Assembly: GCF_018219455.1 (NCBI RefSeq)
Contig: NZ_CP056122.1
Span: forward strand, 1,488,001-1,552,000
Length of the DNA: 64,000 nucleotides
Direction: 5' to 3'
Origin: Moritella sp. 5
GTDB taxonomy: Bacteria; Pseudomonadota; Gammaproteobacteria; Enterobacterales; Moritellaceae
How positions within the stretch are numbered: position 1 is the first letter of the stretch; each line of letters starts with the position of its first letter. The position numbers and the translations under genes were made by a program. The notes below the pieces were generated by a model. It worked only from the letters and a program-made list of their open reading frames with translations, did no database searches and was not told the DNA's origin. This document shows positions 6,427 through 40,178 of the stretch, piece by piece.

Positions 6427-6566
6427 CTATTAATTCTACTTAACTCTTAAATGCTTACATAAAAATATTTTTGATTAACGAACTATATTATTGTTGCATT
6501 TAAAATGCATCAATAATATAGTGATGACGAATTCACAAAATTCGTATTACAAAAAGGTATTTATAG

Positions 6567-6989
6567 ATGCAAACTTCAATTTCAGAACAAGTTTTAACAG
6601 CCCTCGATAAGGTTTTAGTCGTATCTAAAACAGATCTTCAAGGCAACATTACTTATGTTAATGATTTATTTTGTCAGTTAACTGGTTATAGCAGAGAAGA
6701 GTTAGTCGGTGCTCCACATAATTTAGTACGCCATAAATCAATCGAAAAAAGTGTCTATAAAGATATGTGGGATACTATCAAAAATGGTGAAATCTGGACG
6801 GGTATTATACCAAACGTAGGTAAAGGTGGCAGCTTGTATGTTGTAGATACAACAGTACAACCTATCTTTGATGATGCAGGTAACATCACAGAATATATCA
6901 GCATTCGTCGAGTTATTAATGATCTAATGAGTGATTTTGACAGCGTTGAATTATCTAAAGAAGTATTTGACGACTTCTACGGAGAGTAA
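6567..6989 (+). CDS. stand-alone PAS-domain protein, Aer-like
   Basis: A 140-residue protein that is essentially one PAS domain (about residues 15-118). ITYVNDLFCQLTGYSREELVG and the region MWDTIKNGEIWTGIIPN...G resemble the FAD-binding PAS of the aerotaxis receptor Aer. A short acidic tail follows (DSVELSKEVFDDFYGE). There is no output domain, so it must work through a partner. Its stop codon overlaps the start of the diflavin reductase gene (TAATG), which makes that enzyme the natural partner. A cofactor such as FAD is an inference from similarity to Aer. The 5' side has a long leader of about 250 bases. Confidence 0.85.
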   Translation: MQTSISEQVLTALDKVLVVSKTDLQGNITYVNDLFCQLTGYSREELVGAPHNLVRHKSIEKSVYKDMWDTIKNGEIWTGIIPNVGKGGSLYVVDTTVQPIFDDAGNITEYISIRRVINDLMSDFDSVELSKEVFDDFYGE

Positions 6990-8587
6990 TGATGAAAACT
7001 AATTTCGAACGGATTATTATAAGCTATGGCTCTGAATCTGGTAATGCAGAGCGCTTGGCCAGACAGTTTTGCGAGCTACCCTTTCTATCTTCCGTTAAAT
7101 TGGAATTAGTTACTCTCAACAATTTAGTGATAAATGATTTATCCACCAAAGATTTGTTACTGGTGATCACCAGTACCTTTGGTGATGGGGAGCCTCCAGG
7201 CAATGCCGATGACTTTGCGTTACAGTTGGCAAGCCTTAACACTTTGGCTCCCTTTCAATATGCTATTTTTGCTTTAGGTGATGTAGCATATACCAATTTT
7301 TGTCAATTCGGCCAACAACTCGATGCGCAGTTACACGATAAAGGTGCTATCCGAGCTATTAATAGAGTAGACGCTGACTTGGATTATCGTAATTTTTTCA
7401 CACAATGGGTCGATACAGTCAATGCAGTGGTGGCAGGTGACGATACGATTGGTCATCAGTTAATGCTCAGAGTCGAGCCTTATAGTGAAACTAAGCCACA
7501 TCAAGCTAAAATAATTAATGTCACTCGCTTAAATTCCAGTTCTGCCGGTGTCTATAAGATAGATCTCGATATTGATGGCAGTGGAATGAATTATCGGGCC
7601 GGTGATTTATTATATGTAGTACCAAACCATAAATCTGAGTTACTACAAGATATTACAGACTGGTTTGGTGATGAACAGGCGTCACAACAATTACAGGGCA
7701 AAGAATTACGTTTGTTAAGCAAAAGCTTACTACGCACGCTAGCCAATAAATCAAATAATGCTAACTTAAAAGAAAAACTAAAGATCCGTAACAAAAAAGC
7801 ACTTGCCGATTACCTTTACGGTCGTGATGTTTTAGATGTATTACAGGATTGCGGAGAAGTAGGGTATATCACATTAAGCGAATTATGTGATGCATTATCA
7901 GAGCAAACGGCACGCGCTTATTCCATAGCATCCAGCGATCAAAATAGTGACGGTAAAAGTGCTTCGCAAGTCAGTTTATGTGTAAGAGATATCGCTTATG
8001 AACATGAAAATAGAATGCATTTTGGTACGATGAGCAACTGGTTGAGTCGTTGTGAACCTGGTGATATCGTTGATATATTCACTCGGTCTAATAAAGAATT
8101 TCACTTAGCTGATGAAATAGATACACCCGTCATAATGATCGGTGCAGGTACTGGGATAGCACCTTATATTGGTTTCTTACAGCAATTAGAGCGACAACAG
8201 AAAGCTCAAACTGAATTACAAATAAAATCAGAAACATTACTCATATTTGGAGAACGATATTCCAAGAAGGATTTTTTATATAAATCTGAACTTGAACATT
8301 GGTTAAGCGAAGGTGTTTTAAGTCAACTGGTTACAGTGTTTTCACGAGATCAAGAACAAAAGCGCTATGTGCAACATGCGATAATAGAACAAGGTGCTTT
8401 GGTTTGGTCCCTACTCCAACGTGATGCAACATTATACCTTTGTGGTAGTAAAGATAATTTAGCAAAAGCCATAGATAATGCACTTATTGAAGTAGTACAG
8501 CAGCACGGTAAATTATCATTTGATCAAGCTCAGAGCTATATTAATCAACTCACTGACACCGGGTATTACCGTCGGGATTTATATTAA
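6989..8587 (+). CDS. diflavin reductase, CysJ-like (flavodoxin + FAD + NADPH domains)
   Basis: A 532-residue electron-transfer flavoprotein that should pass electrons from NADPH through FAD to FMN and on to a partner. The FMN domain starts with ISYGSESGNAERLA (residues 11-24). The FAD motif RAYSIASS is at about 309-316, the NADPH motif GAGTGIAPYIGF follows, then YLCGSKDNLAKAID. It ends in the aromatic tail GYYRRDLY seen in CysJ. It is shorter than CysJ (about 600 residues), and no sulfite reductase haemoprotein gene (cysI) lies nearby. Sulfite reduction is therefore not implied. Two adjacent ATGs (6989, 6992) are possible; the first overlaps the PAS stop codon. The PAS protein may be its electron acceptor or sensor. 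Confidence 0.88.
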   Translation: MMKTNFERIIISYGSESGNAERLARQFCELPFLSSVKLELVTLNNLVINDLSTKDLLLVITSTFGDGEPPGNADDFALQLASLNTLAPFQYAIFALGDVAYTNFCQFGQQLDAQLHDKGAIRAINRVDADLDYRNFFTQWVDTVNAVVAGDDTIGHQLMLRVEPYSETKPHQAKIINVTRLNSSSAGVYKIDLDIDGSGMNYRAGDLLYVVPNHKSELLQDITDWFGDEQASQQLQGKELRLLSKSLLRTLANKSNNANLKEKLKIRNKKALADYLYGRDVLDVLQDCGEVGYITLSELCDALSEQTARAYSIASSDQNSDGKSASQVSLCVRDIAYEHENRMHFGTMSNWLSRCEPGDIVDIFTRSNKEFHLADEIDTPVIMIGAGTGIAPYIGFLQQLERQQKAQTELQIKSETLLIFGERYSKKDFLYKSELEHWLSEGVLSQLVTVFSRDQEQKRYVQHAIIEQGALVWSLLQRDATLYLCGSKDNLAKAIDNALIEVVQQHGKLSFDQAQSYINQLTDTGYYRRDLY

Positions 8588-8640
8588 GAACATGTCAATT
8601 AAAAACTAATATTTAATTATTTCTAAACCATATTACACAA

Positions 8641-8665
8641 GGACATTGAGTATATGACAATGTCC
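8641..8665. other. hairpin between reductase gene and ribA
   Basis: GGACATTG and CAATGTCC form a perfect eight-base stem with a nine-base loop. There is no T tract, so it is a weak terminator or an attenuation or processing site. Confidence 0.4.
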
Positions 8666-8704
8666 TCCCTAAAATTAATGATAAGTACACCGTATTGAGG
8701 ATAT

Positions 8705-9298
8705 ATGCCTGTTCGTTTTATTGAAACCTGTCGTTTACCAACCCCATTTGTTACTTTTGATATGCATGGCTTTGAAGATTTAGAAACTGGACAGGAGCAC
8801 GTGGCCCTAACACTCGGTGATTTTTCTGATTGCAAGCCTGTTTTAGCGAGAGTTCATTCAGAGTGCCTTACTGGGGATGCGCTATTTAGTATGCGTTGCG
8901 ACTGTGGATATCAGCTGAATGAAGCCATGGGGATGATTGCTGAAGAGGGCCGCGGTATTTTACTTTACCTTAGGCAGGAAGGGCGTGGGATAGGCTTATT
9001 GAATAAAATCCGAGCTTATAGCCTACAAGATCTGGGTGCAGATACCGTTGAAGCCAATGAGCGACTGGGTTTTTCTGCTGACCTTCGAGATTATGGTATA
9101 TGTCAGGGAATATTAAGCCATCTAAATATCTCAAAGTTAAAACTAATGACTAACAATCCTAGAAAAATTGAAGCCTTAAGTGAGTTTGGTATTGAAATTG
9201 TTGAGCGTGTATCGATTCAAGTGGGAAAGAACCCCCACAATGAAGGTTATCTGACCACTAAGGCAGAGAAATTAGGGCACTGGCTGAATAACGCATAG
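8705..9298 (+). CDS. ribA: GTP cyclohydrolase II (riboflavin biosynthesis)
   Basis: It converts GTP to 2,5-diamino-6-ribosylamino-4(3H)-pyrimidinone 5'-phosphate, formate and pyrophosphate, the first step towards riboflavin. The 197-residue length equals that of typical RibA. The zinc cysteines are C54, C65 and C67 in [17 protein letters not shown], the GTP-binding region is [16 protein letters not shown], and [10 protein letters not shown] and the C-terminal [10 protein letters not shown] motif are intact. There is no fused RibB domain. GAGG precedes the ATG. It follows the flavoprotein pair in the same orientation, which suggests flavin supply for them. I see no FMN riboswitch in the 117-base gap. 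Confidence 0.95.
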
Positions 9299-9885
9299 GA
9301 TTATGGATCCAGTTCAATTACGGTAGGCTGTTCAGCGCCCAAAAGACATCGTTCAGCAGCCTTCATAACTGTATTTCAGGGACCTATGGTTTAACGATTA
9401 CATCCTTGTAAGCTACTTACAAGGAACTATGCCAATTTTGAAACTACGATCTTCCCTTACGCCTGAATACCAAATAAAACAATCATCTAACTTTAGAGAG
9501 TTTATTTGTGGATTTGAGGTGAAATTTACATTATCTCTCAAAGAAAATGTGCCCACCACATTAGTTCCAGATACTCTACCATTAGAATGATAGCCTGAAA
9601 AACGATGTCGTCATCTTGTCCAATACCAGCTCCTAAAGGTGGAAGCGGGTGTTCTAAAGGTTGGGCTGGCTTCAATACAGCGGTTTCAATAAACACCCAA
9701 CGATTCGTTAAGGTCGGATCCAAATTTCACTAGCAACCGGTCTCGAGTGAGAAATTATGATATGACAAGTAGCTCCCACGCCTTATATGAGAATAAAACA
9801 TGGGTGAGATCTAACTCACAAAGGGACAGCTTCGTGTCAGTAGAGATAATTTTGACACGAATATGGCCATGTAAACATTCCGATC
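9299..9885. other. gene-poor region with a perfect hairpin and a possible gene shard
   Basis: About 590 bases without a convincing gene. At 9404-9424 CCTTGTAAG and CTTACAAGG form a perfect nine-base stem with a three-base loop. On the minus strand 9538-9723 an open stretch of 61 codons (containing NRWVFIETAVLKPAQP) has no good ribosome binding site. It could be the end of a decayed gene that I cannot identify. Confidence 0.4.
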
Positions 9886-10065
9886 TTAGTTAACTTTGTT
9901 ACCCATTTTATAATATGAAAATACAAAGTGAAGAGCTTCAGCCTGACTTTTACCTTCAGACATTAACCGTTCGATGTCTTCAACTATATTCTTTTGTACT
10001 TCTATTGGAGGTAAGTTTTCGATATCTAGATCAATATTCATAACATCTTCAATACTAATTTCCAT
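9886..10065 (-). CDS. small UPF0181 (YoaH-like) protein
   Basis: A 59-residue protein with a strong ribosome binding site (GAGGA, seven bases before the ATG). The core LPPIEVQKNIVEDIERLMSE, followed by GKSQAEALHFV, parallels E. coli YoaH (LP...EQQ.[20 protein letters not shown]), the type member of UPF0181. Function is unknown. The N-terminal 17 residues are acidic and specific to this copy, and it lacks the long C-terminal tail of YoaH. It is divergent from the ABC exporter gene across a 260-base gap, so shared regulation is possible but not shown. Confidence 0.75.
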   Translation of the reverse strand: MEISIEDVMNIDLDIENLPPIEVQKNIVEDIERLMSEGKSQAEALHFVFSYYKMGNKVN

Positions 10066-10176
10066 CTTTATTCCTCATGATTTATTTATTTTTTTAAATA
10101 ATCTAAGTTTAACATTTTACACATAATAGAATCCAGTATCCTCCGTTTTATCCACAGGCATTTACATTAATGCTTA

Positions 10177-10197
10177 TTCTTAATGCGTAATTAAGAA
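10177..10197. promoter_or_regulatory. palindrome in the divergent region before the exporter operon
   Basis: TTCTTAAT, GCGTA, ATTAAGAA: perfect eight-base arms located 130 bases before the exporter start. It may be an operator. No regulator gene is adjacent to name. Confidence 0.3.
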
Positions 10198-10326
10198 AGC
10201 TTTGATTCATTTATAAAAAACAAACATGCAAACAAGAATGATTAGTGTTAACATCCTAATGCTTTTGTAAAGCACCAATATTTCAATGTGTTGTTATCAT
10301 AACTCTAACAAGCAGTGTTGTTTATC

Positions 10327-26588: not shown

Positions 26589-27563
26589 TTATCCTTTACC
26601 TGTAATGTTTACGGTAGGGTTTATTACCCCATATAACAGGTCAACTAGGGTATTTGTTACCACAAAGATTAAACCAACGAAGATGACATAAGCAGTAATT
26701 AAAGGTGTATCTACACGGTTAATCGCTTCTAAGAATAGGAAACCTGTCCCTGGCCACTGAAATACTGTTTCGGTCAAAATTGTGTAAGCAATCATAGTAC
26801 CGATTTGTACACCACCAACTGTGATAACTGGCAGCATGGTATTTTTAAGGGCATGTACGTAATAAATTTTGTTTAATGCTAAGCCTTTTGCTTTTGCAAA
26901 CTTGATGTATTCCGAGCTTAATGCTTCGAGCATTTCTGAACGAACCAAGCGGATGAAAAGTGGCAGCATAATAGAAGCAAGTGATATACTTGGTAAGACT
27001 AAATGCAATAAACCATCTTTAGTCAGGAAACCTGTTTCCCAGCCCATGATATTGACCGTTTCACCTCGTCCATAAGAGGGGAACCAACCTAGTTCGATGG
27101 AAAAAATATACATCAGTATGATCGCAGTAAGGAATACCGGTACAGAGATGCCAATGCTACTTACAGCCATAATTATTTTAGTGAGTGTACTCTTGGGATG
27201 AATAGCTGAGTAAACTCCTAAAGGAATTGACACAAAAACGATTATTAATGCTGCGCCAAACACCAATTCAAGTGTCGCTTGAAGTTTATCTAAGATAACT
27301 TCTGCTGCAGGTCTTTTAAAGAAATATGAAGTCCCGAGGTCGCCTTGCACTGCATTAACAAGAAAACGGCTATATTTAGTCATGTAAGGATCATTAAGGC
27401 CTAGGTCATCACGAAGTGCTTGTCGCTCTGCTTCAGATACAGATTGACCAACTAATTCACGTAATGGATCGCCTAGATTATCTTGAATAGAAAATGCTAC
27501 CAAACTGATCACGAACATTACTATCAAGGCTTGAAACAGGCGTTTGATCAGAAATGTGAACAT
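26589..27563 (-). CDS. peptide ABC importer permease, DppB/GsiC-like
   Basis: A 324-residue permease opening with MFTFLIKRLFQALIVMFVIS. It has the conserved LGLNDPYMTKYSRFLVNAVQ and GDLGTSYFFKRPAAEVI regions and the coupling loop IKFAKAKGLALNKIYYVHALKN. It pairs with the DppC-like subunit directly downstream. A gap of about 117 bases separates it from the binding-protein gene, which may contain an expression-balancing site. Confidence 0.92.
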   Translation of the reverse strand: MFTFLIKRLFQALIVMFVISLVAFSIQDNLGDPLRELVGQSVSEAERQALRDDLGLNDPYMTKYSRFLVNAVQGDLGTSYFFKRPAAEVILDKLQATLELVFGAALIIVFVSIPLGVYSAIHPKSTLTKIIMAVSSIGISVPVFLTAIILMYIFSIELGWFPSYGRGETVNIMGWETGFLTKDGLLHLVLPSISLASIMLPLFIRLVRSEMLEALSSEYIKFAKAKGLALNKIYYVHALKNTMLPVITVGGVQIGTMIAYTILTETVFQWPGTGFLFLEAINRVDTPLITAYVIFVGLIFVVTNTLVDLLYGVINPTVNITGKG

Positions 27564-39989: not shown

Positions 39990-40178
39990 GAGTCTCTACC
40001 TTTATATGTTTTTTTAGGTTTTAAAGTTACAGACTTCATAATCAAGAGTTTAAGGATCTTGGTAGAAACTCCCAAACCATATTATTGGGATTATACGAAG
40101 TTATTTAACCGCGTAGTTTAGCAGTCTGAAAACGACTCTGCAATTCGCTTAGACTCGTGCCTTAATCAATTTTGCTTA

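Follow-up and report, generated by a model that had tools for sequence, protein, structure and literature searches.

A rare PAS-diflavin reductase gene pair in Moritella sp. 5, a candidate two-protein electron system with a possible link to nitrogen oxides

The locus in Moritella sp. 5

This analysis concerns two genes of Moritella sp. 5, one encoding a free-standing PAS protein and the other a probable NADPH diflavin reductase. They lie in a stretch of 64,000 nucleotides, hereafter the window, that corresponds to C1:1488001-1552000 of a 4.99-Mb genome (Table 1). The two genes overlap by a single base; an operator-like dyad precedes them, and a RibA gene follows 117 bp 3' of the reductase gene on the same strand. 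The pair of PAS and reductase may constitute an electron system of its own. An initial annotation of this DNA had described a lone Aer-like PAS domain overlapping a CysJ-like diflavin reductase gene, with RibA after it; all three open reading frames (ORFs) were confirmed, and Pfam and NCBIfam concur on the identities of the three products. It had also recorded that no sulfite reductase is present. None was found beside the genes, and a separate CysJ-CysI-type pair (Pfam NIR_SIR) lies elsewhere in the genome, at C1:4322063-4325547.

Table 1. Features of the PAS-reductase locus (positions in the window)
Feature	Position	Strand	Description
NsrR-type operator-like dyad GTTGCATTTAAAATGCATC	6493-6511	not assigned	55 bp 5' of the PAS start codon
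PAS protein	6567-6989	+	ORF of 140 amino acids; Pfam PAS_3/PAS_9/PAS; PAS domain alone, no output domain
Probable NADPH diflavin reductase	6989-8587	+	532 amino acids; Pfam Flavodoxin_1, FAD_binding_1, and NAD_binding_1
RibA (GTP cyclohydrolase II)	8705-9298	+	197 amino acids; Pfam GTP_cyclohydro2; third full-length copy in the genome

Distribution of the pair and features of its two proteins

Within the genus Moritella, the reductase is matched at E ≤1e-90 in 2 of 11 genomes, and the same two genomes hold the PAS protein at 100% identity; the remaining PAS matches in the genus reach at most 48%. The second carrier, Moritella sp. JT01 (G005), has a reductase near-identical to that of the window, and the two carriers are closely related and thus count as one observation. 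A survey of the order yielded 19 of 394 genomes matching the reductase at E ≤1e-77. Five of these (G000, G005, G264, G331, and G358) carry a member of the PAS-linked reductase family, and 14 matches score like CysJ.

The family of G358 (f8, presumably the Pasteurellaceae) was represented by 140 genomes. The reductase alignment matched 54 of them at E ≤1e-100, and the matches fall into two sets: 19 score at least 626 bits in frames of 516-565 amino acids, and all others score at most 377 bits in frames of at least 594 amino acids. A separate search with the PAS protein (E ≤1e-35; all matches 1e-61 or better) returned 19 genomes, identical to the 19 with the high-scoring reductase, so that both genes are present in 19 genomes and neither in 121. 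This co-occurrence is far beyond chance; the counts are uncorrected for relatedness, with the carriers spread over eight genera. Some listed members of g46 and g66 hold both genes and others neither, and the pair thus appears to be gained or lost as a unit. The PAS gene lies directly upstream of the reductase gene in 18 of the 19 carriers. In the remaining one, G481 (L171), the reductase has no PAS gene upstream; the pair is naturally separated there, with some 48 kb between the two genes, both of which are kept on a single contig.

Wider surveys found matches in 2 of 369 genomes of the class and 4 of 398 genomes of the phylum, the window's own genome being counted in each, and turned up a second family (f39, possibly the Xanthomonadaceae, with Stenotrophomonas). 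There, the PAS protein is found in 18 of 395 genomes (17 in g300 and one in g573), with the reductase just downstream in every case. Among 72,556 plasmid records, 218 matched the reductase. The top match, at 41.5% identity, is a plasmid of Rhizobium sp. CC-CFT758, which is also the top PAS match (68%) and carries the two genes adjacent to each other; the rest of the best 20 of the 218 reductase matches reach at most 34%. Overall, adjacency is kept in 39 of 40 carriers, including both Moritella genomes and the Rhizobium plasmid. Thus, the pair is rare, yet its carriers belong to at least two classes and four families. The initial annotation had proposed co-conservation across genomes as a check and had counted restriction to this strain, together with a lack of bound flavin or haem, as a refutation; the shared set of f8 genomes, together with f39, Moritella, and Rhizobium, gives a positive answer on co-conservation. 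A literature search covering titles and abstract openings found no description of the pair. The neighbourhood was examined over at least 3.6 kb on either side in 25 of the 38 non-Moritella carriers; the other 13, all in f39, were covered by about 1.5 kb upstream and the reductase alone.

The nearest solved chains to the PAS protein are 3ewk (MmoS) and 8dik (Aer) (chain names from PMC9668731). In Aer, flavin adenine dinucleotide (FAD) is contacted by H53, R57, M69, W70, N85, and R115 (PMC9668731); mapped through the alignment, the equivalents in the window protein are H51, R55, M67, W68, N83, and R114, and its T22 and G26 are the counterparts of Aer T24 and S28, the latter being G in MmoS. The text of PMC9668731 also names an Aer T27 that could not be mapped, and T24 was used on the basis of its stated match to MmoS T103. 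Across 30 distinct PAS sequences from 39 loci, every mapped contact position is invariant save M67 and R114, each conserved in 29 of 30. FAD binding by the PAS protein is therefore likely, to judge from these residues. The position of Aer H53, which corresponds to the reactive cysteine C450 of AsLOV2 (PMC9668731), is His in all 30 sequences, which sets the proteins apart from LOV photoreceptors. In one PAS sequence, from G400 (L185), a Cys replaces the Arg that in Aer points towards N5 of the flavin.

The PAS protein shares its family and FAD contacts with Aer and MmoS (PMC9668731), whereas it is free-standing, has a C-terminal tail of its own that is partly conserved beyond the PAS fold, and is encoded beside a reductase; it consists of the PAS domain without the membrane anchor, HAMP domain, and signalling domain of the Aer receptor. 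In PAS domains of the Aer/MmoS type, the potential of the bound FAD is near -290 mV. Its top NCBIfam score is for NifL (76.7 bits; cut-off 242), but the match is limited to the PAS region (residues 17-121) and no other NifL domain is present. Compared with five other loci, the window's PAS protein is 64-69% identical and its reductase 40-45%. Over 741 pairs, identity in one protein tracks identity in the other (r = 0.93), a correlation that shared ancestry alone could produce.

The reductase combines domains for flavin mononucleotide (FMN), FAD, and NADP in one chain, as NADPH diflavin reductases in the broad sense do, and such an activity is probable for the product of the gene. It resembles CysJ in the FMN-FAD-NADP domain order, the C-terminal Tyr, and its 31-34% identity to the genome's own CysJ, and its nearest solved chains are the sulfite reductase flavoproteins 6efv and 9c91. 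However, its NCBIfam cysJ score of 365 bits lies below the cut-off of 668 bits, and the profile is matched from position 59, the protein lacking the N-terminal stretch of CysJ and opening with the FMN domain. The called ORFs of PAS-associated reductases likewise start at the FMN domain, whereas in 52 CysJ-like open frames the match is preceded by 47-117 residues; the latter are open frames with unverified starts, and some f8 reductase frames also extend upstream. A quick maximum-likelihood tree was computed from 91 rows. It separates the 40 PAS-associated reductases from 51 CysJ-like rows with SH-aLRT support of 100, under a midpoint root, a program warning that long branches meet, and an unusual composition of many f39 rows. 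The PAS-associated reductases thus form a clade of their own in this tree, apart from CysJ. With the genome's own CysI (Pfam NIR_SIR) as query, no match was obtained in the context loci save its own, the flanks covered being at least 3.6 kb for 25 of the 38 carriers outside Moritella. A spare CysJ was accordingly rejected as the identity of the reductase.

Regulatory sites and neighbouring genes

The published NsrR consensus is gATGyAT-N5-ATrCATc (PMC1274295), and the dyad GTTGCATTTAAAATGCATC departs from it by one mismatch. When the 300 bp upstream were shuffled 100 times at the mononucleotide level, no equally good site arose. A tighter pattern, with up to three mismatches, has one match in the 64 kb against 0.13 expected, with at least one match in 13 of 100 shuffles; 20 simulated sequences of window length held on average 0 places at up to one mismatch and 1.4 at up to two. 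The window has one other NsrR-type place with two mismatches, at 27096. In JT01, two bases of the dyad are changed, giving two mismatches to the consensus and a perfect palindrome, which was again equalled in none of 100 shuffles. Scans for promoters and terminators gave counts no higher than in shuffled sequence.

Elsewhere in the same genome, a pattern derived from the dyad has four other places with up to two mismatches, two inside ORFs and two side by side between an Rrf2-type regulator gene and aox. At this second locus (L190 5149-6529), the NsrR-like Rrf2 gene is divergent from a gene for an alternative oxidase (AOX, Pfam), with the operator-like dyads between them; the best model for the regulator is NsrR, at 122 bits, below the cut-off of 182. 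A second NsrR-like gene of this genome lies next to a NorB-like gene (L191 39-2411). In Vibrio fischeri, aox is controlled by NsrR and induced by nitric oxide (NO) (PMC5156696; PMC1274295). Given the like sites between an NsrR-like gene and aox, together with the NsrR control in V. fischeri, the Moritella dyad is taken to be a candidate NsrR operator.

Two further lineages have comparable sites. On the Rhizobium plasmid, an NsrR-type dyad with one mismatch lies 74 bp 5' of the PAS start, and directly after the pair comes a truncated hemoglobin of group III (Pfam Bac_globin at 21.3 bits, with a cut-off of 21), with the ferredoxin FdxA and an Rrf2 regulator; for this regulator the NsrR score is 136 bits and the RirA score 132, neither reaching its cut-off. 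In G401, a member of f8, a dyad with two mismatches lies between the PAS gene and a divergent Rrf2 gene (L189 8155-8646) whose best model is NsrR at 106 bits, again below cut-off. NsrR is reported to be absent from the Pasteurellaceae (PMC1274295). For all four NsrR-like proteins encountered, NsrR is the best model at 106-141 bits, below its cut-off of 182. As in the known NsrR regulon (hmp, hcp-hcr, and aox), the pair is thus preceded by an operator-like dyad of the published form in Moritella, JT01, Rhizobium, and G401, each unequalled in 100 shuffles. Like the pair, hcp-hcr comprises an enzyme with its own reductase (PMC1274295). By contrast, the pair is absent from the passages of PMC1274295 consulted, and neither flavodoxin nor sulfite is mentioned anywhere in that paper.

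In f39, the sites are of the FNR type. A box with up to two mismatches is present in 16 of 18 loci, 77-80 bp 5' of the called start codon in 14 of them, and is perfect in G1467; shuffle controls for three loci gave sequences as good in 1, 3, and 0 of 100, and the genomes of g300 are closely related. Genes for nitrate reductase were looked for in two of the 18 f39 genomes, which belong to different genera. In G1349, molybdate-transport-like genes lie near the pair and NarI, NarH, and NarG 7-14 kb away on the other strand; in G1467, NarG is about 7 kb from the pair. MoeA and ABC-transport genes are named in L172 and L174. Predicted NsrR- or FNR-type sites, or neighbourhoods with nitrate or NO genes, are therefore found in four lineages (Moritella, Rhizobium, G401, and f39). 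Scans for NnrR, CRP, Fur, NarP, OxyR, and IscR sites gave scattered weak matches in the number expected by chance.

A candidate electron system and its alternatives

The reading favoured here, to which we assign a probability of about 0.5, is that the PAS protein and the reductase form one functional unit, an NADPH-driven two-protein electron system made in response to nitrogen oxides (NO, nitrate/nitrite) or low oxygen. It draws on the strict co-occurrence in f8, the adjacency of the genes, the clade separate from CysJ, the retained FAD contacts, and the NsrR- or FNR-type sites or nitrate/NO neighbourhoods. Within the reductase, electrons would pass from NADPH to FAD and then FMN, as its protein families suggest; the FMN domain would then reduce FAD in the PAS protein, its dedicated acceptor, whose conserved C-terminal tail could serve as the docking element. 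In the least certain step, the reduced PAS protein may pass electrons onward to a nitrogen-oxide species or a haem protein. The initial annotation had already suggested the PAS protein as acceptor of the reductase; on account of the co-conservation and the mappable Aer FAD contacts, this part has become the leading reading, whereas its inclusion of RibA in the unit has not survived. The further proposal that the free-standing PAS-FAD protein is a terminal electron-handling protein, forming with its own diflavin reductase a nitrogen-oxide-induced redox enzyme that might reduce NO or related species or feed a globin, is put forward tentatively, as a possibility that we hold rather doubtful. Onward electron transfer is preferred to signalling, as the PAS protein has no output domain, is more conserved than the reductase, and has no signalling partner common to the inspected neighbourhoods.

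Several observations weigh against this reading. In 17 of the 18 f8 loci with adjacent genes, no NsrR-type site was found in the shuffle test, and the neighbours at these 17 loci, judged by eye, are mostly housekeeping genes. In the motif testing as a whole (24 regions and nine motifs, 216 tests), 27 results fell at or below 10% against about 22 expected by chance, so that single FNR matches are weak; standing out among the 216 are NsrR, with four regions at 0 of 100, and the position of the f39 FNR box. Likewise, the search of the genome with the dyad-derived pattern at up to three mismatches returned 51 strand matches and its reversed form 33; most of the 51 are therefore attributable to chance. 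The position of Aer D60, a residue reportedly needed for FAD in mutant work, varies among the 30 PAS sequences (A in 13, D in 12, S in 4, and G in 1). The AlphaFold model of the PAS protein alone is poor (pLDDT 45), and the Rhizobium PAS gene (L108, near 8950) is out of frame over its last codons relative to its relatives and absent from the gene table. Both the electron transfer between the proteins and the output of the PAS protein are, moreover, inferred.

Among the alternatives, the PAS protein may be a redox-sensitive regulator of the reductase, perhaps bound through its tail, that gates electrons to another acceptor such as a globin or other haem protein. Diflavin reductases are known donors to haem proteins, and the truncated globin placed directly after the pair in Rhizobium, as well as the partial conservation of the PAS tail, would fit such an arrangement. 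Nevertheless, no third gene common to f8, f39, Moritella, and Rhizobium was recognised by eye (13 f39 loci being without flanks), and a mere regulator need not be more conserved than its partner; we consider this role unlikely, although it fares best among the alternatives.

Less probable still is the core idea of the initial annotation, in which the PAS protein, its reduced or oxidised state set by the reductase, would dock on an unlinked kinase, chemoreceptor, or transcription factor and thereby govern how the cell responds to nitrogen oxides or oxygen. The PAS protein's closest characterised relatives, MmoS, Aer, and NifL, are redox sensors (PMC9668731; PMC12540587), and regulatory genes occur near some copies of the pair: Rrf2, AraC, and LysR types with another PAS protein in Rhizobium, the NsrR-like gene in G401, and Lrp/AsnC-type and ECF-sigma-type genes at 1-4 kb in G1349. 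These two observations keep the idea alive, and the conserved tail would suit docking on such partners as well. On the other hand, none of the nearby regulators is common to the groups, some may control the pair instead of serving it, and the PAS protein has no output domain.

A three-gene set, in which RibA would take part by supplying both flavoproteins with flavin, is improbable. Such a role would agree with the position of the gene directly after the reductase and with the distribution of strong ribA matches, of which three (98-100% or about 64-65% identity over about 190 amino acids) occur in exactly the two Moritella carriers of the pair and at most two in the other nine genomes of the genus. 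A gene for DHBP synthase (ribB) also lies 3.7 kb after the pair in G358 (L111 12952-13596), past other genes. Nonetheless, RibA accompanies the pair in the two Moritella genomes, whereas the 25 other carriers with examined flanks all lack it there; each Moritella genome holds two further full-length ribA matches, and the two, as close relatives, amount to one observation. RibA was accordingly rejected as a core member of the unit, and the flavin set of the initial annotation shrinks to the pair; in Moritella, RibA may help with flavin supply. A RibA fragment in G003 was considered as a cassette remnant and dropped, since comparison of its locus (L194) with the first 20 kb of the window gave no nucleotide match; the fragment may derive from an ordinary second ribA, as G003 has one strong full-length match and most congeners two.

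Around ribA, Rfam revealed no riboswitch; a purine riboswitch aptamer (77.8 bits) lies far downstream, at 40019-40118 on the minus strand. Between the reductase gene and ribA, positions 8640-8664 hold an 8-bp perfect inverted repeat (GGACATTG...CAATGTCC) without a T run. The approximately 1 kb after ribA (9299-10314) is devoid of any ORF of 80 amino acids, and collinearity with JT01 stops near 10087 in the stretch compared.

Finally, the reductase might serve sulfite reductase, or some other protein like CysI, as a spare flavoprotein subunit. Its nearest solved relatives lend some colour to this notion, which can nevertheless be dismissed as very improbable in view of its separate clade, its low cysJ score, the missing N-terminal stretch, the lack of CysI matches in the context loci, and the complete CysJ-CysI-type pair elsewhere in the same genome.

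If the PAS protein is indeed a terminal electron-handling protein, the PAS fold would have a role outside signalling, and a flavin-PAS protein would be encoded beside its own electron donor. The reductant of Aer is called unknown in a figure legend of PMC9668731; this locus offers a candidate donor genetically linked to its acceptor, and as both proteins are of a size suited to expression, it would open to direct test how flavin PAS sensors obtain their electrons. The link of the pair to nitrogen oxides, through NsrR- and FNR-type sites and nitrate/NO neighbourhoods, is new here and was absent from the initial annotation. Should it hold, a gene pair for which no earlier description was found would become an added member of the bacterial NO and nitrate responses.

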